Below are positions 44,811 to 59,193 of a stretch of DNA of 64,000 bases, piece by piece. The position numbers and the translations under genes are program-made. Source of the stretch: Aedoeadaptatus coli (lineage in GTDB: Bacteria > Bacillota > Clostridia > Tissierellales > Peptoniphilaceae); assembly GCF_900343085.1 (NCBI RefSeq), contig NZ_OPYI01000003.1, positions 1-64,000 on the forward strand. The letters run 5' to 3'. The notes under the pieces are model-generated. The model saw only the letters and a list, made by a program, of their open reading frames with translations. It was not told where the DNA came from and did not search any database. Position 1 is the first letter of the stretch. Every line of letters begins with the position of its first letter.

Positions 44811-45167
44811 ATGGATAATAGAAAAAGAAATAATCAACTAAAAATATATTTAACAGATGAAGAAAAAGAAATCTTTGAAAAGAAAATGAAACTTGCAAAT
44901 TGTAAAACCATGTCCCACTTTCTTAGAAAGTGCGTATTAGAAAAAGAAATTTATGTTGTAGATTTAGAACCATTTAGAAACCTACAATGGCTACTTTCAA
45001 ATGCAACAAACAATATAAACCAGATTGCAAAAGCAACTAATACAACTGGTGTTATTTACAAAAATGAAATCGACTCAATGAATAAACAGATAGAAAAATT
45101 ATCAAAAGAAATATGGCAGATCCATTCCCTACTTCTTAATAAATCTAAAGAAAGTTCTGGTGATTAG
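44811..45167 (+). CDS. MobC-family relaxosome protein
   Basis: A 118-residue basic protein with an N-terminal ribbon-helix-helix-like segment (KIYLTDEEKEIFEKKMKLA, then MSHFLRKCVLE) and the MobC signature LQWLLSNATNNINQIAKATN. It binds oriT DNA with the relaxase. The ATG at 44811 follows AAGGAG; the frame extends upstream through the oriT repeats without a start site. It is followed directly by the relaxase. Confidence 0.88.
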   Translation: MDNRKRNNQLKIYLTDEEKEIFEKKMKLANCKTMSHFLRKCVLEKEIYVVDLEPFRNLQWLLSNATNNINQIAKATNTTGVIYKNEIDSMNKQIEKLSKEIWQIHSLLLNKSKESSGD

Positions 45168-45168
45168 T

Positions 45169-46500
45169 ATGGCAATTACAAAAATACATCCTATAAAATC
45201 AACTCTAAATTTGGCAATAGATTATATAACTAAGAGTGAAAAAACTGATGAAAAAGTCTTGGTATCTTCATTCAAATGCCACCCATCTACTGCCCATATT
45301 CAATTTATGAAAACACGAGAAGACAATGATACTAAAGGAACAGTTTTGGCAAGACATTTAATTCAATCTTTTCTACCAGGAGAGGTTGATCCTACAAAAG
45401 CTCACGAGATAGGAATGAAATTATGCAAGAAAATTTTAAAGGAAGATTATGAATTTGTTCTTGCAACTCATATAGATAGAGGACATATCCATAACCATAT
45501 TATTTTTAATAATGTTAATTACAAAACTGGTAAATGCTACCAGTCTAACAAAAAAACTTACCATAAAATCAGGTATCAAAGTGACGAATTATGTAAAGAA
45601 AATAAGCTTTCAGTCATTGATGAATATTATGAAGCTTACAAAAGAAAATATAAAACTGCGGGTAAATCTTGGTACGAATATGACCAAAACAAGAAAGGAA
45701 ATTCTTGGAAGTCTAAACTACAATTTGATATAGACAGAATGATTAATAAGTCTAACTCGTGGGAAGAATTTTTAGAAAATATGAAATCTATTGATTATGA
45801 AATTAAGTTTGGTAAACACATTGCTTTTCGTCATAAAGATAAGCAAAGATTTACAAGAGCTAAGACTATCGGAGAAGATTATACCGAAGAAAAAATCAAA
45901 GAAAGAATAGATTTAGCTATTAAAAACAAAGCTAATCCTATTAAAAAACGTGTAGGAAACGTAATTGATATATCTACTAATAAAAAAGCTCAATCCTCTA
46001 AAGGTTATGAAGTTTGGGCAAGAAAACACAATATCAAAACAATGGCAGATTCAATAATTAAATTGAGAGAACAAGGAATTAATTCCATTACACAACTCGA
46101 TGATCTTATCAAAAAATCTGCTGATGATAGACAAGATTTGCTAGATAAAATTAAGAAAATTGAAACTGAAATGAAGAGTTTATCCGAGGATATGGAAAAT
46201 ATAAATACTATAAATAAGTATCGTGAAATATATAAATACCACAAGAAAAATCCTGAAGATAAGCAATTTGCAAATGAGTATTATAGCGAACTTTCCGTCT
46301 ATAAAATAGCCGCAAAAGAAATTTTAGAAAACTATAAAAAACTACCAAATACAAAAGAAATATTAACAAGACTCGATAAACTGCAAGAAAAAAAGAACAC
46401 CCTTATGCAAGAGTATTCTTTGAATAAAGAACAATTTTCTGATCTTGTTCAGTATAGGAAAAACTATGAAAATTATTATGGGAAGGAAGTAGAAAGATAA
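45169..46500 (+). CDS. Relaxase, MOBP type (MobA/VirD2-like)
   Basis: A 443-residue DNA relaxase. Motif I region starts MAITKIHPIKSTLNLAIDYI, with a catalytic Tyr candidate; motif III is THIDRGHIHNHIIFN (about residues 104-118), the three-His metal site. The C-terminal half (about 270-440) is a helical, coiled-coil-rich region. It nicks oriT and pilots the single strand during conjugation. The start at 45169 is 2 bp after the mobC stop; the frame opens 9 nt earlier but MAITK is the conserved N-terminus. Confidence 0.93.
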   Translation: MAITKIHPIKSTLNLAIDYITKSEKTDEKVLVSSFKCHPSTAHIQFMKTREDNDTKGTVLARHLIQSFLPGEVDPTKAHEIGMKLCKKILKEDYEFVLATHIDRGHIHNHIIFNNVNYKTGKCYQSNKKTYHKIRYQSDELCKENKLSVIDEYYEAYKRKYKTAGKSWYEYDQNKKGNSWKSKLQFDIDRMINKSNSWEEFLENMKSIDYEIKFGKHIAFRHKDKQRFTRAKTIGEDYTEEKIKERIDLAIKNKANPIKKRVGNVIDISTNKKAQSSKGYEVWARKHNIKTMADSIIKLREQGINSITQLDDLIKKSADDRQDLLDKIKKIETEMKSLSEDMENINTINKYREIYKYHKKNPEDKQFANEYYSELSVYKIAAKEILENYKKLPNTKEILTRLDKLQEKKNTLMQEYSLNKEQFSDLVQYRKNYENYYGKEVER

Positions 46501-46507
46501 AAAATTA

Positions 46508-46566
46508 GGGGAAGTCAATTCTTTATATAAACTATTACTCATAAAAGTTGACATTCCCATTTTTTT
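46508..46566. terminator. Bidirectional terminator between relaxase and ABC genes
   Basis: GGGAAGTCAA pairs with TTGACATTCCC (one bulged A) and is followed by seven T residues on the plus strand; on the minus strand the same stem precedes a T-rich run. It can end both the relaxase transcript and the ABC operon transcript arriving from the right. Confidence 0.65.
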
Positions 46567-48157
46567 ACAAAGTATATATGTTATCTGACAACATAGCTAT
46601 ATTATCATTTAGTCTATGAGTAATCATTACAACAGTTAAATTTGAATCTAAAAACAATTCTTTCTCTATATATTCTGAATTTTTAATATCCAAATTTGCT
46701 GTCCCTTCATCTATAAAAATCAAATCCCTTTCTGAGTATAATGCTCTTGCTAAACAAATTCTTTGAATTTGACCTGCTGAAAGGGTAAGATTGTTACTTT
46801 TCAGTTCTGTTTCCAAACCTCTAGGTAAATCTTTTATAAAATCTTCAATTTTTGTTCTTTTGATTACATTATAGAGTAGTTCAGCGTCATATTTTTTATC
46901 CAAAATGATATTGTTTCTTATACTCATATTAAATATATAATCATCCGAACTTACACATGCTATTGAATTTTTTATCAATTGGGACGATATTTCTTTATAA
47001 TTTTTACCATCCCAAAATATATTCCCTTCATACGATAATAAATTAGAGGAAATTATTTTCATTAGCGTCGTTTTACCTGTTCCGCTCTCACCTATAACTA
47101 TGTATTTTCCATTTTTTTTAATACATATGTCTGGAAAATTAATTTTCTCTTTATTATTGTAAGAATAAGATAGATTACTAGTTATAATTTTATCAGAAAA
47201 TATCATCTCGCTTTTATCTACCTTTTTCACCTGTAAATCTAAGTCATATTTTCTTAATATAGATTTTGATAAAATATATTTAGAATAAACTTCTCCAAAT
47301 GATTGCAATGAATTAAATAATTGATTTGATAAATTCCCTACTGAAATTATTATCCCATAGCTTACAATTTTATTATAAGCCAGCCATCCTGATATAAAAA
47401 TTAATAAAACTTGACTAAATGTATTCAAAAAATTTATCAAAATCCATAATTTAGATAAATTTTTTTCTAATGTTATTTTATCATTTCCTAAGGAGATTGA
47501 ATGATTTTTTATTACTCCTAACATTAATTTCAATGAAGAATAATTATTTAGTATATGACTCCCATTTATCATATTAAAAGAATTTGATTGCAACTCTTTA
47601 TATTTTTCTGATACATTGTTGATTTCATCAGATATTTTATCATCAAAAAATTTAGGTATCACCAAAATAATTAAGCCTAACAATATAGATGTTAACACAA
47701 TAATATAATGAAAACTAAACAATGCTAAACTTGAAAAAATTACTCCACTAAGTATTGAAACCAACTCAAAAAAACAACCTATCCCATCACTAATTATTTC
47801 TATATCATTTGTACATAAATTTACATATTCATCATAATTTACGAACTTATCTTGTTTTGAATTACTCGAAAATTCTGAAACCAGCTTCTTAATAGCAGCA
47901 CTTCTCAGATCAGTACAAATTTTTTGTGTTAGAGTCTCTTCTTTAATTCTACGAATATAATTTGAGAATAAACCTGATATCCAAGCAATAAAAGACAATA
48001 AAATATAGTATAAAAATTGATAAAAATTCTGTTTTAATAAAAAATCAATACTTTTAGCTATTAACAATGCACCTACCGTACTAGCTAAAACAAAAAAACT
48101 AGATAACAATGTAAGAATAATTGTTTCTTTAATATTTTTTTTTAATATTTTTATCAT
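46565..48157 (-). CDS. ABC half-transporter (possible lanthipeptide exporter)
   Basis: A 530-residue fused ABC protein: six-helix membrane domain (about 10-290) and ATPase (about 320-530) with Walker A GESGTGKTT, signature LSAGQIQR in place of LSGGQ, and Walker B LIFIDEGT. No C39 peptidase domain is present, so it would not itself remove a leader. As last gene of an operon facing the LanKC gene it is the best candidate exporter for the predicted lanthipeptide; that link is by position only. Confidence 0.72.
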   Translation of the reverse strand: MIKILKKNIKETIILTLLSSFFVLASTVGALLIAKSIDFLLKQNFYQFLYYILLSFIAWISGLFSNYIRRIKEETLTQKICTDLRSAAIKKLVSEFSSNSKQDKFVNYDEYVNLCTNDIEIISDGIGCFFELVSILSGVIFSSLALFSFHYIIVLTSILLGLIILVIPKFFDDKISDEINNVSEKYKELQSNSFNMINGSHILNNYSSLKLMLGVIKNHSISLGNDKITLEKNLSKLWILINFLNTFSQVLLIFISGWLAYNKIVSYGIIISVGNLSNQLFNSLQSFGEVYSKYILSKSILRKYDLDLQVKKVDKSEMIFSDKIITSNLSYSYNNKEKINFPDICIKKNGKYIVIGESGTGKTTLMKIISSNLLSYEGNIFWDGKNYKEISSQLIKNSIACVSSDDYIFNMSIRNNIILDKKYDAELLYNVIKRTKIEDFIKDLPRGLETELKSNNLTLSAGQIQRICLARALYSERDLIFIDEGTANLDIKNSEYIEKELFLDSNLTVVMITHRLNDNIAMLSDNIYTL

Positions 48158-48179
48158 CTTTATACCCCTACTAAAATAA

Positions 48180-49070
48180 TTAGCTTATATTTCTTAAATA
48201 AAATTCTTCCAATGTCTCTTCTTTTCTAAAAATTTCATAGACTTTAATGCCATTATTAACTAATAGACTAACAAGCTCTGAACTGTCTTCTATATTTTCT
48301 TTAACTCGAATCCTGTCATTTTGAATATCAATTTTGGAGATTTCCTGTTCCTTTAATATTTCTACTGTTCTATCAATATCTGAAGTGCAGATTTCTATAT
48401 AATTAAAATCTCTGTTATGCAAATCATCCAAACTTAATTTATCTATCACTTGACCGTCATTAATAATCGCTATTTTATTTACCAAGTTTTCCAACTCTGG
48501 AAGCACATGACTAGAAATAATAATAGTCACTCCATTTTCTTTATTTAGTCTTTTTAATAAGTCTCTTATTTCTACTATACCTTTAGGATCTATTCCATTA
48601 ATAGGTTCATCTAAAATTAAAAGTTCTGGTTTTCCCAAAAGACATACAGACAAAGCTAATCTCTGCTTCATACCTACTGAATAGTTTTTAACTACCTTAC
48701 CATCATCGTAGTTTAATCCAACTAATTCTAAAGATTTCTTTATAGTATTCTCATTAGTAATGCCTTTTTGAATTGCAAAATATCTCAAATTATCTCTAGC
48801 TGTCAAATTACCAAACAAAGTTGGATTTTCCAAAATTGCTCCAATTTTTTTTCTTCCTTCTGAAAGATTCTTTCCTCCAAACAATTCATAATCACCTTGA
48901 GTTTTCTCAGTAATTCCACAGAGAATTTTCATCAGCGTTGATTTTCCAGCACCATTTTTACCAATTATACCATAGATATCTCCTCTATTCACTATTAGCG
49001 AACAGTTATTTAAAGCGTATTTGTCATTATATTTTTTTGAAAGATTATCTGTTTTTACTATAGCATCCAT
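48180..49070 (-). CDS. ABC ATPase, BcrA/LanF-like
   Basis: A 296-residue ATPase: Walker A GKNGAGKST near 38, signature YSVGMKQR near 130, Walker B LLILDEPINGIDP near 148, and a C-terminal extension typical of bacitracin/lantibiotic-immunity ATPases (BcrA, LanF). The ATG at 49070 follows GAGGTGG. It pairs with the permease encoded upstream with 8 bp between them. Likely role: removing peptide antibiotic from the membrane. Confidence 0.82.
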   Translation of the reverse strand: MDAIVKTDNLSKKYNDKYALNNCSLIVNRGDIYGIIGKNGAGKSTLMKILCGITEKTQGDYELFGGKNLSEGRKKIGAILENPTLFGNLTARDNLRYFAIQKGITNENTIKKSLELVGLNYDDGKVVKNYSVGMKQRLALSVCLLGKPELLILDEPINGIDPKGIVEIRDLLKRLNKENGVTIIISSHVLPELENLVNKIAIINDGQVIDKLSLDDLHNRDFNYIEICTSDIDRTVEILKEQEISKIDIQNDRIRVKENIEDSSELVSLLVNNGIKVYEIFRKEETLEEFYLRNIS

Positions 49071-49078
49071 AATCCACC

Positions 49079-49813
49079 TCAATTGATTTCTTTTCTACTA
49101 AATCTTACATATCCATTCATTAGATAAATTACAAAGACAAAAACAAAACTAATACCAGCTGTCTTCATAAAGCTATTTCCAATTTGCTCTGTAGCCAATC
49201 CTAAATCTAATAGCTTGAATGGTTGTATAAGAAGAAGGTTATTAAGTACATCGTAGATTTTTCCTTCAGTCATATACATTCCTATTTGAAAAACTGATGG
49301 GATTATAACAAAAGAAGTTGCAATGCCTAGAGCCACATTATTTAACAAATAAGTTAAACCCATGACACCATTGTTTACATTTATCATCAATATTATCATT
49401 CTAATCAAGAAAAAGACAAATCCGATATATGATCCTCCAGTGTAATCAGATCCCACTAGATTTTTTAATACACTGAATAATAAAATCAATCCTCCCATTA
49501 TTACTATAGAAAAAAGAGTAAAAATTTGTAAAGTAATAAGGTCGCATACAAATATATGCTTTCTACTAAGCCCCATTGATAGTAGCTCTACTTTTATATC
49601 TTTTTTCTTAAAAATAGTCACGCTGAAAAAAATTGAAATTATAATACTAACAATCTTTAAAAAGGTTTCCATAGATTCAAAATATTCTCCCGAATTAGAG
49701 TCTATGGATGAATAAATCATACTTCCTAATAATATCAATGTAGTAGCAGCGATAAATTTAAGATAATTTCTTGTATGAAAAATTCTAAAAATCTCAGCTT
49801 TAATATATTTCAT
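49079..49813 (-). CDS. ABC permease, lantibiotic-immunity type
   Basis: A 244-residue protein with six hydrophobic helices, the layout of LanE/LanG or BcrB permeases. It starts KYIKAEIFRIFHTRNYLKF, the usual amphipathic lead-in. The ATG at 49813 follows AGAGGTGAAAAGATC. It is partner of the ATPase downstream. Only one permease gene is present instead of the LanE/LanG pair. Confidence 0.75.
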   Translation of the reverse strand: MKYIKAEIFRIFHTRNYLKFIAATTLILLGSMIYSSIDSNSGEYFESMETFLKIVSIIISIFFSVTIFKKKDIKVELLSMGLSRKHIFVCDLITLQIFTLFSIVIMGGLILLFSVLKNLVGSDYTGGSYIGFVFFLIRMIILMINVNNGVMGLTYLLNNVALGIATSFVIIPSVFQIGMYMTEGKIYDVLNNLLLIQPFKLLDLGLATEQIGNSFMKTAGISFVFVFVIYLMNGYVRFSRKEIN

Positions 49814-49820
49814 GATCTTT

Positions 49821-50606
49821 TCACCTCTCATTGATAAACTCAAATCTATTTAGTTTACCTTCTAATTTTATTTTATTGGGCGTATTTTGATTAAATATCT
49901 CATCATAATTTTTTAAACCAAGTTCGCCTTCAACAATAGAGAAATTCAATATATTATCTCCTTTAAACTCATTTTTTTCTCCAAAGATTCGAGATTTATT
50001 TAAATTTAGTTTACTATCACTAATATTTGTAGAACTCATACTTAAATCTGATAATTCTAAATCAAGATTTAATTTGTTAATCGTTGAATCAGTAAGATCA
50101 ATATCAATTGCATTACCCTTAATGCCTACATTCTTAAGCGTTGCATTCTTAATACTTATTGAACCAACTTTATCATTTATAGAAATCTTATCTATGTTTT
50201 CGATAGGTCCTTCAATTACCAATTTCAATTTAGATGATTCTTCGTCTAGTATTCCTATTGGTTTTTGTTTTAATAGCTTGTTAGAGATACTAATTACGCC
50301 ATTTTTTTCTTCGACCTCTATAGGACTCACATAGTCTGATTTTAAATTTTCAATCTCTACATTGTAATTTTCACTTGTATTGGATATTAACTCTATATTT
50401 GTAATATTTGTATCAATTTGTAATTCTTTGATTTTTTCAAATGTTTCTGTTCCTGTATAACTAGATGCCACTACAGGATCTAACCCATTTTTGTCAATAT
50501 AATATTCATCTTCAGATAATTTTAGGTTCAGCTTTCCTCCCATATTGCATCCGACAAGAGTTAAAACCATACCTAATGCCAAGGTAATCCATAATTTCTT
50601 TTTCAT
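49821..50606 (-). CDS. Lipoprotein with beta-helix-like repeat (DUF4097-like)
   Basis: A 261-residue predicted lipoprotein with signal peptide (about 1-19) and lipobox LVGC, Cys20. The mature part is rich in short repeated beta strands (KLVIEGPIENIDKISINDKVG, IKGNAIDIDLTDSTINK), resembling DUF4097-type proteins found beside HAAS-domain and PadR genes. Function unknown; it could bind or sense the peptide at the membrane. Confidence 0.68.
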   Translation of the reverse strand: MKKKLWITLALGMVLTLVGCNMGGKLNLKLSEDEYYIDKNGLDPVVASSYTGTETFEKIKELQIDTNITNIELISNTSENYNVEIENLKSDYVSPIEVEEKNGVISISNKLLKQKPIGILDEESSKLKLVIEGPIENIDKISINDKVGSISIKNATLKNVGIKGNAIDIDLTDSTINKLNLDLELSDLSMSSTNISDSKLNLNKSRIFGEKNEFKGDNILNFSIVEGELGLKNYDEIFNQNTPNKIKLEGKLNRFEFINER

Positions 50607-50620
50607 ATTAAAACCCCTTT

Positions 50621-51157
50621 CTAACTATTGATATTTCTTTCCTTGATTCTTTTTATTATTAATTTCCCAATTAGGTTAATTATTTCAATCAATATCCCTG
50701 TTGCCGAAATAACTAAAAGTATTACTCCCAGTAGCAAACATAAACTTGCTATCGAAAATCCACCTAAAAAGAAATTTTTTACTGTTCCAATAACCAATAA
50801 GATTACCGTGAAATAAGTAGCAGCTATTAAAAAAATAGCTGTAAATAACAAAGCCAAGAATACTACTAATCCTACCAAAATTGTTGGTAGTGATAAAATA
50901 CTTAAGGTAATTATTGGTATCCCTTTAAAAATTTTCTTAATCGAACTGTTTTCATCTTCCCAGTTATCTATTTTCATAGATAAATTTAAATCCCTAGCAA
51001 TTTTATTTACATCATATTGATTTGGTATTTGATCTTCATCCGCTAAATTCATTTCATCAAATAACTCTGAATAAAATAGAATTGCCTCTTCTCTTTCTTT
51101 GTTATCAAATTTCTTTAATTTTTTATCCAAAGTTTCTAAAAAAGATTTCCTAATCAT
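50621..51157 (-). CDS. HAAS-domain membrane protein (DUF1700-like)
   Basis: A 178-residue protein with an N-terminal HAAS-type cytoplasmic domain (about 1-60: FLETLDKKLKKFDNKEREEAILFYSELFDE) and three to four C-terminal transmembrane helices (about 75-165). Such proteins nearly always follow a PadR regulator, which they overlap here by 8 nt. They are thought to sense membrane state and modulate the regulator. Confidence 0.78.
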   Translation of the reverse strand: MIRKSFLETLDKKLKKFDNKEREEAILFYSELFDEMNLADEDQIPNQYDVNKIARDLNLSMKIDNWEDENSSIKKIFKGIPIITLSILSLPTILVGLVVFLALLFTAIFLIAATYFTVILLVIGTVKNFFLGGFSIASLCLLLGVILLVISATGILIEIINLIGKLIIKRIKERNINS

Positions 51158-51497
51158 CTCTACCCTCCTTACTTTTCATAATAAAATCATCTACTGTATT
51201 TTTATACTTCGACCAGCTTTCTAATTGCTTCTCCAATTCTTTTTTTCCATCATCCGTTAAAGTGTAATATCGCCTATTTCTTCCATTTATGGATTTATTA
51301 TATGTTGCAAGATAATTGGATTTTTGCAACCTTCTTAATACTGGATAAACGGTAGATTCTGAAATATTAAATTCATCTGATAACTCTTGGGTCAACTTGT
51401 ACCCATAGGTATCTTCTTTATCGATTGCTATTAAAACACATAGCTCTAAAACTCGAGTATCTATTTCAAACATCTGTATTGCATCATATCCTTTCAA
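51150..51497 (-). CDS. PadR-family regulator
   Basis: A PadR winged-helix regulator of 107-115 residues: LELCVLIAIDKEDTYGYKLTQELSDEF, then ESTVYPVLRRLQKSNYLATYN, then RRYYTLTDDGKKELEKQLESW. The frame opens with TTG at 51497; an ATG at 51473 (MFEIDTRVLELC) is an alternative start giving the more usual N-terminus, though it lacks a well-placed ribosome site. It faces the LanKC gene and probably controls both directions. Confidence 0.85.
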   Translation of the reverse strand: MKGYDAIQMFEIDTRVLELCVLIAIDKEDTYGYKLTQELSDEFNISESTVYPVLRRLQKSNYLATYNKSINGRNRRYYTLTDDGKKELEKQLESWSKYKNTVDDFIMKSKEGRDD

Positions 51498-51621
51498 AAC
51501 TATTCCGTTTCATTTATTACAAAACCATATTTGTTAATGCTTTAAAATTTATTTAATTTTAGTTCTTTCTTTTTATAAACTATGACCTAATTATAAGTTT
51601 ATCAACTAATCAACACAATAC

Positions 51622-51665
51622 TATATGACGTATAATATTGATATTTATATTATATGAGGTATAAT
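51622..51665. promoter_or_regulatory. Tandem 15-bp repeat, candidate PadR operator
   Basis: TATATGACGTATAAT (51622-51636) and TATATGAGGTATAAT (51651-51665) differ at one base and are 29 bp apart, about three helical turns, in the intergenic region between padR and lanKC. Equivalent spacing on one DNA face suits a bound regulator. Confidence 0.5.
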
Positions 51666-51713
51666 AATAAATGTCAAGATGTATGCCATTTAATTCTTGA
51701 TATTAACATTTTT

Positions 51714-51742
51714 TTGAATATTGTTAATTACCATGTTATACT
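51714..51742 (+). promoter_or_regulatory. lanKC promoter
   Basis: TTGAAT (51714-51719), a 17-bp spacer and TATACT (51737-51742). An AAGGAGG Shine-Dalgarno follows at about 51769-51775. Confidence 0.75.
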
Positions 51743-51781
51743 ATAAATAGTAATACTAATATGTATTAAGGAGGTCGTTGT

Positions 51782-54334
51782 ATGGATTTAAGATATTTTG
51801 AATATCTATTAGATGACGAAAAATACTATACAAAATTCACGGTAAACGATGTAGCTTTTACTCTACCCGAAATTTTTAAGAATAATTCAGATAAGTTTGA
51901 TATTTATTATAGTGAAGATCTTCACTGGAAAGAAATTCGAATGAAATATCCCCATCTATTAACTCAGGGATGGAAAATACATATATCAGCGATATTATCA
52001 GAATCACAAGATATACTTAATATTGTATCAAAAATTTGTTTCAATTATAATGTCTCTTTTAAATTTGTAAGAACTCATGGTGAATTAAAGTTTAAGAATG
52101 TTAAATATGCTGATAGAAGTTCTTCTGGAAAGTTTATTACTATCTACCCTAACTCTGAAGAACAATTCATACTTTTGTTAGATATTCTACATAACTCTTT
52201 ACTCGGATTTAAGAATGGTCCATATATCCTAACTGATAAAAGATGGAGAGACGGTAACGTGTATTTTCGTTATGGTGGATTCAAAACAATTAAGAAGGTA
52301 AATGATCAAAATAATTATTACATTTATACGCCTGAAGGCAATCTAATTGTAGATGATAGAGACCCTTATTATAAACTTCCTGATTTTATTAAAGAGCCAT
52401 CTTTTATCCAAAAAATAGAAAATGAATATATTATTGACGATGAAGAATTATCTAATTTAAACAAGTATGAAATTATTGACGTTATACACTTTAGCAACGG
52501 TGGAGGTGTGTACTTAGCTAAAAGCATTAATAATCATAGTAAATGTATTATAAAAGAGGGCAGATTGTCAGCCGGGCTAGATGGAGAAAATATTGATGCA
52601 TTTACAAGAATTAGTAGAGAGTTTAAATATCTCTCAAAATTATTTGATGTAAAAGGCGTAGTAGAACCTATAGAGTTTTTCAAAGAATGGGAAAACAATT
52701 ACCTTGTAGAAAAATATATTGATGGCTATGTTTTAGATGACTGGATAAGGCTTAATTTCCCTTTTATTGCTGATTCTACAACAAGAAATTCATACGCTAA
52801 TAGAATAATCAATATTCTTAATAAACTTTTGGACATAATAAATGAGATACACTCAAAAAATGTTGCTATAGGTGATTTACAACCAAATAATATAATAATA
52901 AATGATGAAGATGAAGTCACTATTATAGATTTAGAAGTTGCATCTGATGCAAACGCTGATAACTCTCTAAATATAAGAACTCCAGGATTTATGGATAAAA
53001 GAGCAAAGACATCTGAAGAAAATGATATTATTGCTTTAATTAACATTGCTTGGTATTGCTTTTTACCTATTGGTCCAATATCCAGCATTAATAAAACAAT
53101 TATAGCAAATCATTTTAATCATATTAAAAAAACTTTTAGTCCCTCTATTTCTAATAAATTCTATGAGTACATCTATAAATGTTCCAACTTATTATCTTTT
53201 GGAGATGACTATATCAAACTCCTTACAGAAAATAATAATATTTTAGAGATTGGTATAAATAAAATTATGGAGATAAAAAATTCATTATTGTATACACTTG
53301 AACAAGATGCAAATTATAATTCTATAAAATTATTTCATGGAGATATTAGACAATACGAAACCGAATTAGGTATGTACAATTTTTTATATGGATCTTTTGG
53401 AAATATTTATACATTGTATAAATATAATAAACTAAATGATTCATCACTAGATTGGATTGATAAATTCTGTGATTTTAAAAAATATAATGACCTTGGATTG
53501 TTTACTGGAAAAGCAGGCATTGCCTCAATATTATATAATATTGATTTGAAAGAGAGTGCAAATAAATTATTTAAAGAAGTTACTGATGAACTAGATTTAA
53601 ATAGTCCTGATATCACCCTATTATCAGGACTTTCTGGAATAGGACTTTCATTGATTGAATATTATAGAGTAACTAACGACTTAAACATTTTATATTTAGT
53701 TGAAGAAATCGGAAGAAAAATGATTCAAAACTTAACAGATAAATATTTTGAAATAGAACCTATAGATGATTTTTCTCCAATCGGTTTGTTAACAGGATGG
53801 ACAAGTATATCATACTTTTTAATCAATCTATATAAATTAACAAATAGAGACATATACATTAATTATGCTCATGTTGCTATAAAAAAGGATCTTGCTAAAT
53901 GTAAATTTGATGGTGCCTTATACACAGAATATAATTCAATCTTGTCACCATACTTGTTAGGTGGTTCTACTGGTATAGCTATTTGTATAAAAGAATTTCA
54001 AAAATTAGGCATTCATGATTATGATAATCAATTTGAACAAATACTAATAAATATTAATACTACAAATTTCTATGGAGTCGGTTTATTTAGAGGCGTTGGT
54101 AGTATGGTATTGTTATCCACATACGCAACAGATAATAAAACAACTTTAATAAATAAATCTTTATCTTTATTAGAATTGTTTTTATCCTATAATGATAATG
54201 AAATTTTAGTTCCTGGAGAATTTTCCTATAAATTCTCCAATGATGTTTTTTCTGGTACATCTGGTATTTTATTATTACTATATGACATCTTAAACAATAC
54301 TACAGACACGTGGATTCCAACAATCAAACAATAA
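51782..54334 (+). CDS. Class III lanthipeptide synthetase (LanKC)
   Basis: An 850-residue trifunctional enzyme. N-terminal lyase-type domain (about 1-210) as in LanKC/LanL. Central protein-kinase-like domain (about 235-480): ATP Lys258 in CIIKEGR, Glu in ISREFKYL, catalytic loop GDLQPNN (Asp365) and IDLE (Asp383) in place of DFG, the form seen in LanKC kinases. C-terminal LanC-like cyclase (about 520-850) with repeated Gly-rich turns GLFTGKAGIAS, LLSGLSGIGLS, LLTGWTSISY, LLGGSTGIAI, FSGTSGILLL. The CHG and Cys zinc ligands of LanC and class IV LanL are absent, so class III. It phosphorylates, eliminates and cyclises Ser/Thr and Cys of the 54422 precursor. Confidence 0.9.
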   Translation: MDLRYFEYLLDDEKYYTKFTVNDVAFTLPEIFKNNSDKFDIYYSEDLHWKEIRMKYPHLLTQGWKIHISAILSESQDILNIVSKICFNYNVSFKFVRTHGELKFKNVKYADRSSSGKFITIYPNSEEQFILLLDILHNSLLGFKNGPYILTDKRWRDGNVYFRYGGFKTIKKVNDQNNYYIYTPEGNLIVDDRDPYYKLPDFIKEPSFIQKIENEYIIDDEELSNLNKYEIIDVIHFSNGGGVYLAKSINNHSKCIIKEGRLSAGLDGENIDAFTRISREFKYLSKLFDVKGVVEPIEFFKEWENNYLVEKYIDGYVLDDWIRLNFPFIADSTTRNSYANRIINILNKLLDIINEIHSKNVAIGDLQPNNIIINDEDEVTIIDLEVASDANADNSLNIRTPGFMDKRAKTSEENDIIALINIAWYCFLPIGPISSINKTIIANHFNHIKKTFSPSISNKFYEYIYKCSNLLSFGDDYIKLLTENNNILEIGINKIMEIKNSLLYTLEQDANYNSIKLFHGDIRQYETELGMYNFLYGSFGNIYTLYKYNKLNDSSLDWIDKFCDFKKYNDLGLFTGKAGIASILYNIDLKESANKLFKEVTDELDLNSPDITLLSGLSGIGLSLIEYYRVTNDLNILYLVEEIGRKMIQNLTDKYFEIEPIDDFSPIGLLTGWTSISYFLINLYKLTNRDIYINYAHVAIKKDLAKCKFDGALYTEYNSILSPYLLGGSTGIAICIKEFQKLGIHDYDNQFEQILININTTNFYGVGLFRGVGSMVLLSTYATDNKTTLINKSLSLLELFLSYNDNEILVPGEFSYKFSNDVFSGTSGILLLLYDILNNTTDTWIPTIKQ

Positions 54335-54353
54335 TTACTTTGGTATAATACTT

Positions 54354-54387
54354 CATATGTCAGATAAATATTTATTTCTGATGTGTG
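54354..54387 (+). promoter_or_regulatory. Stem-loop between lanKC and the precursor
   Basis: CATATGTCAGA pairs with TCTGATGTGTG (11 bp including three G-T pairs) around a 12-nt loop, without a T-run. It may stabilise the precursor mRNA or partly attenuate transcription, giving different amounts of enzyme and precursor. Confidence 0.45.
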
Positions 54388-54421
54388 ATTTATTATAAAT
54401 ATTTTGAAAGGAGGATGCTTT

Positions 54422-54544
54422 ATGTCAAAGAAGATTCTAGAGTTGCAAAAAATGCAATCAAAAAAAGCTGATAAAGTTGTATCTAGAAAATCTGGTACAA
54501 GTGGATCTTGTACACTTAAGAGCGCAATCAGCCTATTTTGCTAA
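54422..54544 (+). CDS. Class III lanthipeptide precursor peptide (LanA)
   Basis: A 40-residue peptide, too short for routine gene calling. AAAGGAGGA precedes the ATG by 7 nt. The leader (about 1-23) has ILELQ at 5-9, matching the ILxLQ motif by which class III synthetases recognise leaders, and ends in basic SRK. The core (24-40) contains two exact S-x2-S-x2-C modules, Ser24-Ser27-Cys30 and Ser34-Ser37-Cys40, the spacing used for labionin or lanthionine rings, and the peptide ends on the last Cys. Both its position 87 bp after lanKC and the motif support the call. The mature ring type cannot be read from sequence. Confidence 0.88.
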   Translation: MSKKILELQKMQSKKADKVVSRKSGTSGSCTLKSAISLFC

Positions 54545-54562
54545 TTCTTTAAATAGCTGATT
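54526..54562 (+). other. Hairpin overlapping the end of the precursor gene
   Basis: AATCAG-c-CTATTT pairs with AAATAG-CTGATT across the stop codon. It begins inside the last six codons of the precursor. With no T-run it is more likely an RNA-stability element than a terminator. Confidence 0.5.
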
Positions 54563-54607
54563 TATGAGTCTGTTTATTTATTTTTGAATAATTAAACAGA
54601 AAATACG

Positions 54608-54668
54608 AAACAGTTGCTATTATGTGTTGTAATTTAAGCACAAATATGGCAACTGTTTTGTTCTTTTG
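54608..54668 (+). terminator. Terminator after the lanthipeptide genes
   Basis: AAACAGTTGC pairs perfectly with GCAACTGTTT, with an inner TGTG/CACA helix, followed by TGTTCTTTTG. It would close the lanKC-lanA transcript. Confidence 0.7.
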
Positions 54669-54750
54669 TTTGACACTCCTATAAATTATACGATAGCCAT
54701 ATTTTAAGTAATTACATTTACGATTGATAATATTATAATTGATTATTTGC

Positions 54751-54779
54751 AAAAAAATAAAGACAGTCCGAAGACTGCC
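54751..54779 (-). terminator. Terminator of the element backbone operon
   Basis: On the minus strand GGCAGTC-TTCG-GACTGTC is followed by TTTATTTTTTT, 5 bp after the stop of the ssDNA-binding-like gene. Confidence 0.9.
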
Positions 54780-54784
54780 GATAT

Positions 54785-55441
54785 TTATCTTTCTGCACCT
54801 TTGCTATGGTCTTTCTTATTTAACTTAGCTTTGTCATCTGTCTTAAAGCTTTTTATTTGCCCTAATATGGACTTTTTATCCTTATCTTGACCCTTTACTT
54901 GTTCTTTTGCTTTTAAGAGCTTAGAAGACAAGATACGAACATTCTTATGTTCCTTTCCGTTGTAATCAATGCTTGTTTTTACTTGACCGAAGATTTTAAC
55001 AAAATCTCCTTGTTTCAGGTTCTCTAAATCTTTTGTCTTATCTCCATAGGCTGAACAATTCGTATAAATTTTATTCCCATCGTCATCTTTTGAAACAAGA
55101 GAAAAATTACTTACTTTGAACTTTTCTCCATTAGCATTTTCTCGTTCAAGATTTTCTACTTTACCAGCTATATTACCCACGAGATTTATAAGATCATCTT
55201 TTTCTTCAATATCACTGACATTTTCAACAATCTTACCTTGTTCTTTCATATCATCAATCATATAGTCAAAGTCATCATTTAGTAGACCTGTTGTGTCATT
55301 GTTCATATATAAAACATAGACTTCTTCAAGTGCCTTTTCATCATTAACACCTTTTTCTATGCTCACAAGTGCTTTTATAAAATCCTTGTAGTTATCATTC
55401 ATCATTTCTTGTAAGTTTTCTCTAATATCTTTGTATTCCAT
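54785..55441 (-). CDS. OB-fold single-strand-DNA-binding-like protein
   Basis: A 218-residue protein. The N-terminal half (1-90) is helical and acidic. The C-terminal half (about 105-175) resembles an SSB-type OB fold: KVSNFSLVSKDDDGNKIYTNCSAYG, then GDFVKIFGQVKTSIDYNGKEHKNVRI. The tail is very basic and ends SILGQIKSFK-type residues, which recur at the end of the neighbouring helicase exon. In Tn5252-like elements such genes lie beside the methylase/helicase gene and may protect transferred single strands. AAGGAGG precedes the ATG. Confidence 0.7.
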   Translation of the reverse strand: MEYKDIRENLQEMMNDNYKDFIKALVSIEKGVNDEKALEEVYVLYMNNDTTGLLNDDFDYMIDDMKEQGKIVENVSDIEEKDDLINLVGNIAGKVENLERENANGEKFKVSNFSLVSKDDDGNKIYTNCSAYGDKTKDLENLKQGDFVKIFGQVKTSIDYNGKEHKNVRILSSKLLKAKEQVKGQDKDKKSILGQIKSFKTDDKAKLNKKDHSKGAER

Positions 55442-56852: not shown

Positions 56853-59193
56853 GTCGAGTAGGTCGGGGATATTACTATCCCTTTCCCCTCTAAGAACCGT
56901 GCATGAGAGTTTCCCCTCACACGGCTCAAGTTTTTATAAGCCCTAATTAAAGAGCCAGCGTGTTTTCTTCATCATTTATATGCAATCTTCTATGACACCA
57001 AGGGTGTACTAAAGTTTTAAGGGTAATGTTATTTTGAATTGTTTGATGTACTCTAAAGTCTGTATCAATAGTTATTTTCTCTCCACAAACAGGGCATATT
57101 CCATTTTGCGTTTTATACAGTCTATTTATAACTGTACGTCCTTTAAGTTCGTTTCGTATTTTTAACTCTTCTCTTTCTTCAAAGTATATTTGCCAATTTT
57201 CATCAAATGGATTTGCTTCAGCTTGTATCTTGGTAAATCTTTTAATATCAGTGTCTGTAGCATATTTAAGACGAAGATAGTATTTCTCGCCATTTTCCAT
57301 TCTGTCGCCAGTTGCTACACTGAAAGTCCAGGTTCTATTTCCAATGGTATGGAAGTATTTCTTAGCTATCCATTTTCTACCTTTCTTTGGGTGTCTACGA
57401 ACGCACCAGGTCCACAAGCTCTTATATATTTCATAATCAAGTTTTTCAAAGGCTTTAGATGAAACATTATATTTCTGATAGTTTACCCAACCTATAATGA
57501 TTGGATTTAATTTTCTAATCAAAATTTCTTGTTTCATTGACGGATTATCTTTTATGATTCGTCTGATTTTATCGACAATAGCCTTGAAGTTCTTATCAGA
57601 TGGTTTTGTAAGCAACTTATCTTTATACATCCTAATATTAACTCCGAGAAAATCAAAACCATCATTTATGTGTGTTATGAGTGTCTTTTCCTCTGATAAT
57701 TCTAAACCTCTTTCAGCCAAGAATTTTACAATGATTGGCTTTACACCATTTTTAAGCAATTCTGCACTTTCCCCTGTAACGATGAAATCATCTGCATATC
57801 TAACAAAGTTAACCTTTGGGAAATATGTTTTCTTATTTACTGTTCTTCTATGGTATTTCTCTTTGATTGCTTTTTCTAAACCATCTAATACCATATTGGA
57901 AATAATAGGTGATATTGGCGAGCCTTGTGGACTTCCTGTTTCTGTTGGAAATAGTTTTTGTTTTTCTATATATCCACACTCAAGCCAGAGTTTTAATAAT
58001 TTCTTGTTCATTGGGATATTATTTAATATCCATTCATGACTTATATTATCAAAACAACCTTTTATATCTCCCTCAAGTACCCATTTTGCAGACTTCTTTT
58101 TATTGAGTGACGTAAAACACTGCTCGATAGCATCTTGTGTACATCTTTTTGCCCTAAATCCATAAGAATTAGGGTCAGCAGTAGTTTCTGCTATGGGTTC
58201 AAGTGCAAATTTATATAGGGTTTGCATTGCTCTATCTGTCATTGTAGGAATGCTGAGAGGTCTTTTCTTCCCGTTTTTCTTTGGTATATACACTCTTTTA
58301 AGAGGCTTAGGTTTATATCCTCTTAAATTTAACTTTTCTATCGCCTTATACTTTGCCTGTGGTGTTAGCCATAATTCGCCATCTACACCACTTGTTTTCT
58401 TGCCTTGATTTTCAGTTACCCTCTTAATAGCCAAGGCTTTTGCATAAAATGAAGTTGTGAGTAAATGTTGTAAAGATTTTACCTTTCCATATTTACTCAT
58501 TTTCCACGCTTTCACAATACGCATTTGTAGTTTTTTAACATAGCTTTCTGCTAGAGAAAAATCTATACTTTCCCAGTCTTTAGCTCTGTTAGTAGTAGCA
58601 CACATTTTACTGTTCATTTGCTTTCTCCTTTCAAAAATTCTACAAGTTCTCTTGTGATTAAAAACCAAATGGAAGTCTGCACTCTTTCAAGTTAGGGCAA
58701 ATTTTGAACCCCTATCCATCTCATTACAAGATGGCATTCGCTTTTTCCATTCTCCTTTACCTGCACCATTATCAGCATTTCTTACGATTTGCCTTGCCTT
58801 TTGGCAATAGTACAGGCTTACCATGTTTCACTTAATTAACATTGATAACTTAGGCTCTACCTCTCTGCCGGTAGTCTTTTTGTCCGTGTAATCCCACTGT
58901 GGAAAGGATTATCCGACTACACACCATTTTGGTTCAGGCTTATCAGCAACTTTAGCCTGTTCACCTTAACGACATTTATCAGTAGTTCACATATGTTAGC
59001 CATATTATCAAGCCTCGCTCCCTAACCGCCTTGTTGCTGGCAGTTTCGGTATTCCCTCACGGTTTTACCTCAAGTAGGGCTACTTTAATATCGGCTTACC
59101 ACACCTAAGTGCAGTCGATACTTGGCTCAACTAACGGAATAGTTGGTTTGGTCATTATGCCAAACAGTTAAATTAAGCGACTTCATGTCGCAC
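56853..59193 (-). mobile_element. Group II intron, full length
   Basis: A 2341-nt intron in sense orientation within the helicase gene. The 5' end is GTGCGACATGAAG (from 59193 on the minus strand), the standard group II start. The 5' noncoding RNA (about 58,620-59,193) precedes the maturase gene. The 3' end shows domain V (stem GAGCCGTGTGAG with CTCTCATGCACGGTTC, about 56,895-56,930) and domain VI before the final ...CTACTCGAC at 56853. Removing these bases joins TTGTGG to CAGACG in frame. The 525 bases before the maturase are ribozyme, not gene. Confidence 0.92.
56947..58617 (-). CDS. ltrA: Group II intron reverse transcriptase/maturase
   Basis: A 556-residue intron-encoded protein. The reverse transcriptase has GDIKGCFDNISH and FVRYADDFIV (the YADD catalytic site), with QGSPISPIISN before it. 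Maturase domain X follows (about 350-430: GWVNYQKYNVSS). The C-terminus is an HNH endonuclease: CPVCGEKI, then HPWCHRRLH. It splices the intron and inserts it at a matching DNA site. The ATG at 58617 follows GGAGA by 6 nt; the open frame extends 17 codons upstream but without a ribosome site. All domains appear intact. Confidence 0.94.
   Translation of the reverse strand: MNSKMCATTNRAKDWESIDFSLAESYVKKLQMRIVKAWKMSKYGKVKSLQHLLTTSFYAKALAIKRVTENQGKKTSGVDGELWLTPQAKYKAIEKLNLRGYKPKPLKRVYIPKKNGKKRPLSIPTMTDRAMQTLYKFALEPIAETTADPNSYGFRAKRCTQDAIEQCFTSLNKKKSAKWVLEGDIKGCFDNISHEWILNNIPMNKKLLKLWLECGYIEKQKLFPTETGSPQGSPISPIISNMVLDGLEKAIKEKYHRRTVNKKTYFPKVNFVRYADDFIVTGESAELLKNGVKPIIVKFLAERGLELSEEKTLITHINDGFDFLGVNIRMYKDKLLTKPSDKNFKAIVDKIRRIIKDNPSMKQEILIRKLNPIIIGWVNYQKYNVSSKAFEKLDYEIYKSLWTWCVRRHPKKGRKWIAKKYFHTIGNRTWTFSVATGDRMENGEKYYLRLKYATDTDIKRFTKIQAEANPFDENWQIYFEEREELKIRNELKGRTVINRLYKTQNGICPVCGEKITIDTDFRVHQTIQNNITLKTLVHPWCHRRLHINDEENTLAL

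Follow-up and report, generated by a model that had tools for sequence, protein, structure and literature searches.

The window analysed here, a 64,000-nucleotide stretch of DNA from Aedoeadaptatus coli, very probably carries a complete class III lanthipeptide cluster as cargo of a pAPRE01-like conjugative element of Peptoniphilaceae, with probable export, immunity and PadR control. The enzyme class, its domain residues, the pairing of enzyme and precursor, the element and a shared promoter region are read directly from the sequence. The chemistry is that of an ordinary, known class with a complete gene set. The features discussed below are as follows (window coordinates, strand, description).

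45160..46500, plus strand: relaxase (Pfam Relaxase, 6e-38), at whose stop codon the cargo bay has its left edge
46565..48157, minus strand: ABC half-exporter without a peptidase domain, likely lanthipeptide export (nearest intact relatives in lanKC genomes)
48180..49082, minus strand: ABC ATPase, likely immunity transporter (best match TIGR03740; true start probably an ATG a few codons inside)
49079..49843, minus strand: ABC-2-type permease, part of the likely immunity transporter (between ATPase and lipoprotein, one operon)
49821..50606, minus strand: DUF4097 (toastrack) lipoprotein (Pfam DUF4097, 2.4e-08; lipobox-like LTLVGC)
50621..51157, minus strand: DUF1700/HAAS-like membrane protein (weak Pfam HAAS match, 0.0047)
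51150..51497, minus strand: PadR-family regulator (Pfam PadR, 1.6e-19; likely true start ATG near 51473)
51617..51677, no strand: overlapping divergent promoters and two operator-like repeats ATATGANGTATAATA (promoter scan, repeat scan)
51782..54334, plus strand: lanKC, 850-aa class III lanthionine synthetase with RamC_N lyase, Ser/Thr kinase and zinc-less LanC-like cyclase
54335..54421, plus strand: stem-loop between lanKC and lanA (RNA fold -19.4 kcal/mol, z -3.3)
54422..54544, plus strand: lanA, 40-aa class III precursor (NF038159, homologue alignment, Shine-Dalgarno AAAGGAGG)
54545..54690, plus strand: strong hairpin 3' of lanA, likely transcription terminator (RNA fold -42.5 kcal/mol, z -6.5)
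54785..55441, minus strand: backbone gene of 218 aa whose terminator ends at about 54750, the right edge of the bay (junction survey)

Between 23 and 89 kb the contig is collinear with the backbone of plasmid pAPRE01, with the genes from DtxR to RepA mostly 85-99% identical and the T4SS and relaxase mostly 95-99% identical. The backbone runs from siderophore-type NRPS genes through the relaxase, the 218-aa and 442-aa genes and a group II intron to a helicase, a topoisomerase, VirB4, VirB6, VirD4 and RepA. Judged by its relaxase, VirD4, VirB4, VirB6 and collinear backbone, the element is a conjugative one of the pAPRE01 type, in agreement with the original prediction, which had placed the locus on a conjugative element. 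The NRPS cluster on the minus strand (23230-44378) encodes condensation, adenylation, methyltransferase and thioesterase domains together with a phosphopantetheinyl transferase, an iron-dependent repressor and ABC exporters, and those of its genes that match pAPRE01 are 89-99% identical; we take it to resemble the equibactin or yersiniabactin type of siderophore cluster. The group II intron reverse transcriptase/maturase (56947-58668, minus strand) has a 97% copy in pAPRE01.

The lanthipeptide cluster occupies the interval from the relaxase stop codon to the 218-aa gene (46500-54785), the terminator of the latter lying at 54779-54762. The stretches behind relaxases of 94-98% identity were compared at 40 related loci (L159-L198). 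Their content varies from element to element, and LanKC is present in none of the 40. Similarity ends at 46497-46503 in 46 of 53 left junctions and at 54749-54752 in 36 of 45 right junctions, and on these alignments a cargo bay with sharp limits and element-specific content extends from the stop codon of the relaxase to 54,750. The sharp edges may simply be the limits of functional sequence, a stop codon on one side and a terminator on the other, and we therefore claim no integration enzyme. Cargo sampled in other bays comprises a radical-SAM RiPP maturase, QatA and QatC anti-phage proteins, McrBC, an OLD-like nuclease, restriction methylases and FtsX or ABC transporters. In four elements (L167, L174, L178 and L182) a segment encoding relaxase residues 180-446 starts 26 bp beyond the 218-aa gene and leads into a second bay; the second bay holds the same genes in three of these four tandem elements, while the first bay differs and is empty in one. 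Relaxase 3' ends also lie at the borders of the lanthipeptide cassettes in A. prevotii and P. lacrimalis. It stands at even chances, in our estimate, that the bay is a general one of a conjugative element widespread in Peptoniphilaceae. Cassettes would then be exchanged there at almost fixed edges, weapons (class III lanthipeptide, radical-SAM RiPPs) as well as anti-phage or efflux genes, and would be piled up as units of relaxase 3' end, cargo and 218-aa gene; the five-gene operon described below would be an orphan immunity kept after the loss of lanKC. Relaxase 3' remnants were also seen bordering other RiPP cassettes (L034 10532-10830, L035 10361-10722).

The half-exporter has its nearest intact family relatives in genomes with a lanKC locus (G113, G114 and G121, E about 1e-102), the next best relative standing at E 2e-64 with broken copies left out; its family relationships suggest that it probably exports the lanthipeptide. 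The remaining minus-strand genes form a PadR-DUF1700-DUF4097-permease-ATPase operon divergent from lanKC. The best NCBIfam match of the ATPase, TIGR03740 (lantibiotic protection ABC ATPase), scores 215 bits, below the cut-off of 310, and the search for a family model of the permease returned no match. PadR shares 38-46% identity with its counterparts next to lanKC in Staphylococcus and Priestia, and the DUF1700-like protein is 31-32% identical to staphylococcal DUF1700 proteins adjoining lanKC. The permease is found at no less than 95% identity (95-98%) in six other genomes (G003, G010, G037, G038, G122 and G045). The five of them other than G045 have copies of the five-gene operon, the G003 copy lying at a contig end and covering just a part of it. 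Among the permease carriers, LanKC exceeds the cut-off just in G045 and the window.

An operon that also travels without lanKC might be unrelated envelope-stress cargo, and the product of the cluster a surface-active or signalling peptide like SapB of Streptomyces; morphogens are among the class III products of actinobacteria. We regard this possibility as somewhat doubtful. Against it stand the recurrence of PadR, DUF1700 and lipoprotein genes next to lanKC in other Firmicutes (S. simulans, S. epidermidis and Priestia), the finding that in other elements this bay houses different RiPP clusters and defence genes, and the exporter remnants of G010 and G037, where two ends of the gene survive around internal deletions and flank the operon. 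The last observation suggests that lanKC was lost in these two genomes and protection was kept. A search of the lanKC-less copies for remnants of LanKC or lanA found none. Homology with these copies ends at 51472, the PadR start codon, and the sequence beyond differs, so that recombination may have replaced the lanKC region just as well as a simple deletion may have removed it. The lanKC-less copies tested display dN/dS of 0.04-0.43 without internal stops, one stop flagged in the G122 ATPase being read as preceding the likely true start. Since the operon appears to be under purifying selection in genomes devoid of lanKC, we favour its interpretation as a probable self-immunity operon.

Both operons appear to be read from overlapping promoters. 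The minus-strand promoter, TTGACA-17-TATAAT, spans 51677-51649 (12/12 in the scan), and the plus-strand promoter, TTGATA-16-TATAAT, spans 51638-51665 (11/12). Exact copies of ATATGANGTATAATA are located at 51623-51637 and 51652-51666 and nowhere else in the window, and the pattern allowing one mismatch has 7 matches in the window against 1.5 expected. Similar palindromic sites lie upstream of PadR also in the lanKC-less copies. The position of these candidate operators on the promoters suggests that PadR probably represses both operons.

LanKC exceeds the model cut-off in 5 of 130 Peptoniphilaceae genomes searched, Peptoniphilus and Anaerococcus among their named members. The precursor model matches six, namely the five genomes with a full LanKC and G114, which has a LanKC fragment close by; this co-occurrence across the 130 genomes indicates a pairing beyond chance. 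The window enzyme groups with the LanKCs of Peptoniphilus and Anaerococcus (95/93), and this clade nests in a Firmicutes-rich group that includes ThurKC of Bacillus thuringiensis, enzymes encoded on staphylococcal and streptococcal plasmids, and two actinobacterial entries. G045, a member of a different genus, shares 16.9 kb with the window (47076 to the window end) at 97% identity; its LanA protein is identical (dN/dS 0) and its LanKC is 98.9% identical at the protein level (dN/dS 0.17). Such a long stretch of near identity with an identical peptide indicates that the lanthipeptide region was recently transferred between genera. The G045 exporter (L032 17545-18747) is cut after residue 374, at window position 47076 where the 97% identity stops, and lanKC and lanA are intact there. 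Phage records searched for LanKC gave no match, and a literature search linking lanthipeptides with Peptoniphilus or Anaerococcus found nothing relevant.

Decay is common among the relatives, with the exporter truncated in G045 and internally deleted in G010 and G037, and with only a fragment of LanKC in G114. It is nevertheless improbable that the cluster of the window is itself a decaying remnant whose product is no longer made: all of its genes are open and full length, and the G045 copy combines an unchanged peptide with the low dN/dS of lanKC given above.

The 850-aa product of lanKC combines RamC_N (4e-53), Pkinase (1.8e-13) and LANC_like (1e-13) domains on one chain and scores 750.8 bits against the class III equivalog model NF038151 (cut-off 575). 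The kinase residues Asp365 (GDLQPNN) and Asp383 (IDLE), named in the original prediction of a LanKC-like synthetase, are both present and are invariant across 19 aligned LanKCs. ThurKC residue numbers were mapped onto the protein through an alignment with 8SAP, in which 19 of the 19 residues named in PMC10604976 fell in place. In this numbering, lyase residues K65, H67, K94, K117, D152, R163 and R191 and kinase residues D364, D382 and E384 are conserved in 48 of 48 LanKCs compared, and the window enzyme retains all 10 of the catalytic positions checked. The zinc ligands Cys284, Cys330 and His331 of NisC correspond to Ser726, Phe770 and Asp771 of ThurKC (PMC10604976), and these positions are occupied by Leu726, Phe769 and Arg770 in the window LanKC; a separate MAFFT alignment of the 48 LanKCs with ThurKC places the same three residues there. 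The predicted zinc-less cyclase is thus confirmed at the level of alignment: a Cys/His zinc site, named beforehand as the feature that would speak for class IV, was looked for and is absent. A synthetase of class IV (LanL), which would have a zinc-dependent cyclase and share the lyase and kinase domains, is ruled out with near certainty by these positions and by the model scores, as the class IV model reaches 274 bits of the 650 needed, over the lyase-kinase part, and the class III cut-off is exceeded. By its sequence, the protein belongs to the class III lanthionine synthetases.

The AlphaFold model of LanKC (mean pLDDT 88) matches ThurKC (8sao) with Z 54.1 and rmsd 2.8 over 821 residues at 36% identity, followed by SalKC, PneKC and CuvL. 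PneKC (with PneA, Streptococcus pneumoniae) and SalKC (with SalA, described as a class III salivaricin) are Firmicutes class III enzymes with solved structures, matching the model at Z 35-41 and the window LanKC at 24-26% identity. R610, D667 and D771 of ThurKC, required for labionin formation (PMC10604976), align with L614, T671 and R770. Arg770 was considered as an oddity of the enzyme and rejected, the position being occupied by R, H, D, N, T, A, Q or Y among LanKCs. As all three positions vary widely among LanKCs, they provide neither an argument against activity nor a prediction of ring type.

The favoured start of lanA is the ATG at 54422 behind AAAGGAGG, and with the stop codon ending at 54544 it yields the 40-aa peptide MSKKILELQKMQSKKADKVVSRKSGTSGSCTLKSAISLFC; initiation at an alternative TTG codon, 54404, would lengthen it to 46 aa. 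Both partners were searched against databases and pass the NCBIfam class III models, the peptide reaching 32.5 bits against NF038159 (cut-off 30). The predicted 40-residue precursor with an ILELQ leader is supported by this match and by an alignment of eight precursors that have the I-L-x-L-Q motif in common. Its core contains S24-x2-S27-x2-C30 and S34-x2-S37-x2-C40, two exact modules of which the second closes on C40, as had been noted, and the S, S and C of both, in modules of the form S-x2-S-x2-3-C, are invariant in the eight homologues at identities down to 38%. The peptide possesses both motifs described for class III precursors, the LxLQ leader and S-x2-S-x2-5-C core modules (PMC7268733, PMC8960859), and on this alignment it is the precursor of LanKC. 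The exact core was not met in our search, so that its earlier description as unrecognised holds for the sequence itself, yet it falls within an existing NCBIfam model. The claim that gene callers would miss the peptide stands in part: most of the homologous precursors bear the name 'class III lanthipeptide' in RefSeq and the curated NCBIfam model detects lanA, but the Lactobacillus homologues are just 'hypothetical protein', and in one survey 55% of the class III precursors lacked annotation (PMC7268733).

Ring type, export, immunity, regulation and an antibacterial role are inferred from these genes. The LanA leader helix (ILELQ) would dock on LanKC, whose kinase would phosphorylate Ser/Thr residues of the core and whose RamC-like lyase would take off the phosphate to give dehydro residues. 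The metal-free cyclase would then form one ring system, lanthionine or labionin, per S-x2-S-x2-C module. The product would probably leave through the half-exporter, the leader being cleaved by a protease encoded outside the cluster, and the PadR-controlled five-gene operon would probably protect the producer. No leader protease is encoded in the lanthipeptide cluster. The genome has one M16 peptidase (973 aa), and no pair of adjacent M16B genes like that of the Bacillus class III systems was found in it; an uncalibrated search found no relative of the trypsin-like protease of some Firmicutes lanKC loci.

One of the closest known systems is ThurKC/ThurA (andalusicin; 8SAM, 8SAO, 8SAP; PMC10604976), which likewise has three domains, a metal-free cyclase and a LELQ-type leader motif. 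The Thur cluster contains seven precursors and a methyltransferase (PMC10604976), whereas the lanthipeptide cluster of the window has one precursor with two ring modules and no methyltransferase was seen in it; it also lacks the prolyl oligopeptidase and CAAX proteases of the S. pneumoniae clusters (PMC7268733). The class III cluster of pAPRE01 (Anaerococcus prevotii, NC_013164) belongs to the same family and lies on the same conjugative backbone and in the cargo bay. Its LanKC is about 38-39% identical to that of the window, and its precursors are annotated as class III lanthipeptides in RefSeq. It differs by several precursors, other exporters and additional radical-SAM RiPP genes within the bay, and, unlike in the window, a PadR-DUF1700-DUF4097 operon was not seen nearby. 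Plasmids of Staphylococcus simulans, S. epidermidis and Priestia aryabhattai share lanKC, an ABC exporter, PadR, DUF1700 and a lipoprotein with the window, and their precursors of 39-47 aa carry two S-x2-S-x2-3-C modules. These clusters have an extra upstream gene of about 200-220 aa related to trypsin-like protease, and their lipoprotein is of the NDxxF type and not DUF4097; the ATPase-permease pair is absent.

The supposed rarity of class III lanthipeptides in Firmicutes did not hold up. Published mining describes class III clusters as abundant in Firmicutes (PMC8960859), and Actinobacteria and Firmicutes are the source of the majority of LanKCs (PMC7268733). Our tblastn search found LanKC on plasmids of S. 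simulans, A. prevotii, S. salivarius, Priestia, S. epidermidis, L. helsingborgensis, Jeotgalibaca and L. plantarum. Several of these carry genes annotated as 'class III lanthipeptide', and on such Firmicutes plasmids RefSeq usually has names for synthetase and precursor alike. Streptococcal ICEs are known to carry bacteriocin clusters (PMC7168690).

The cluster adds one more class III system, with a new core, from a poorly studied family of human-associated anaerobes. Worth pursuing are its setting on a mobile element, the five-gene operon as a probable orphan immunity, and the cargo bay. Self-protection is little known for class III lanthipeptides, and near-identical natural elements with and without lanKC offer a direct test of whether the mobile five-gene operon confers class III immunity; the same elements could show whether PadR couples production to protection. 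The cargo bay, in turn, provides a defined site for finding new RiPPs and defence genes in the elements of Peptoniphilaceae.
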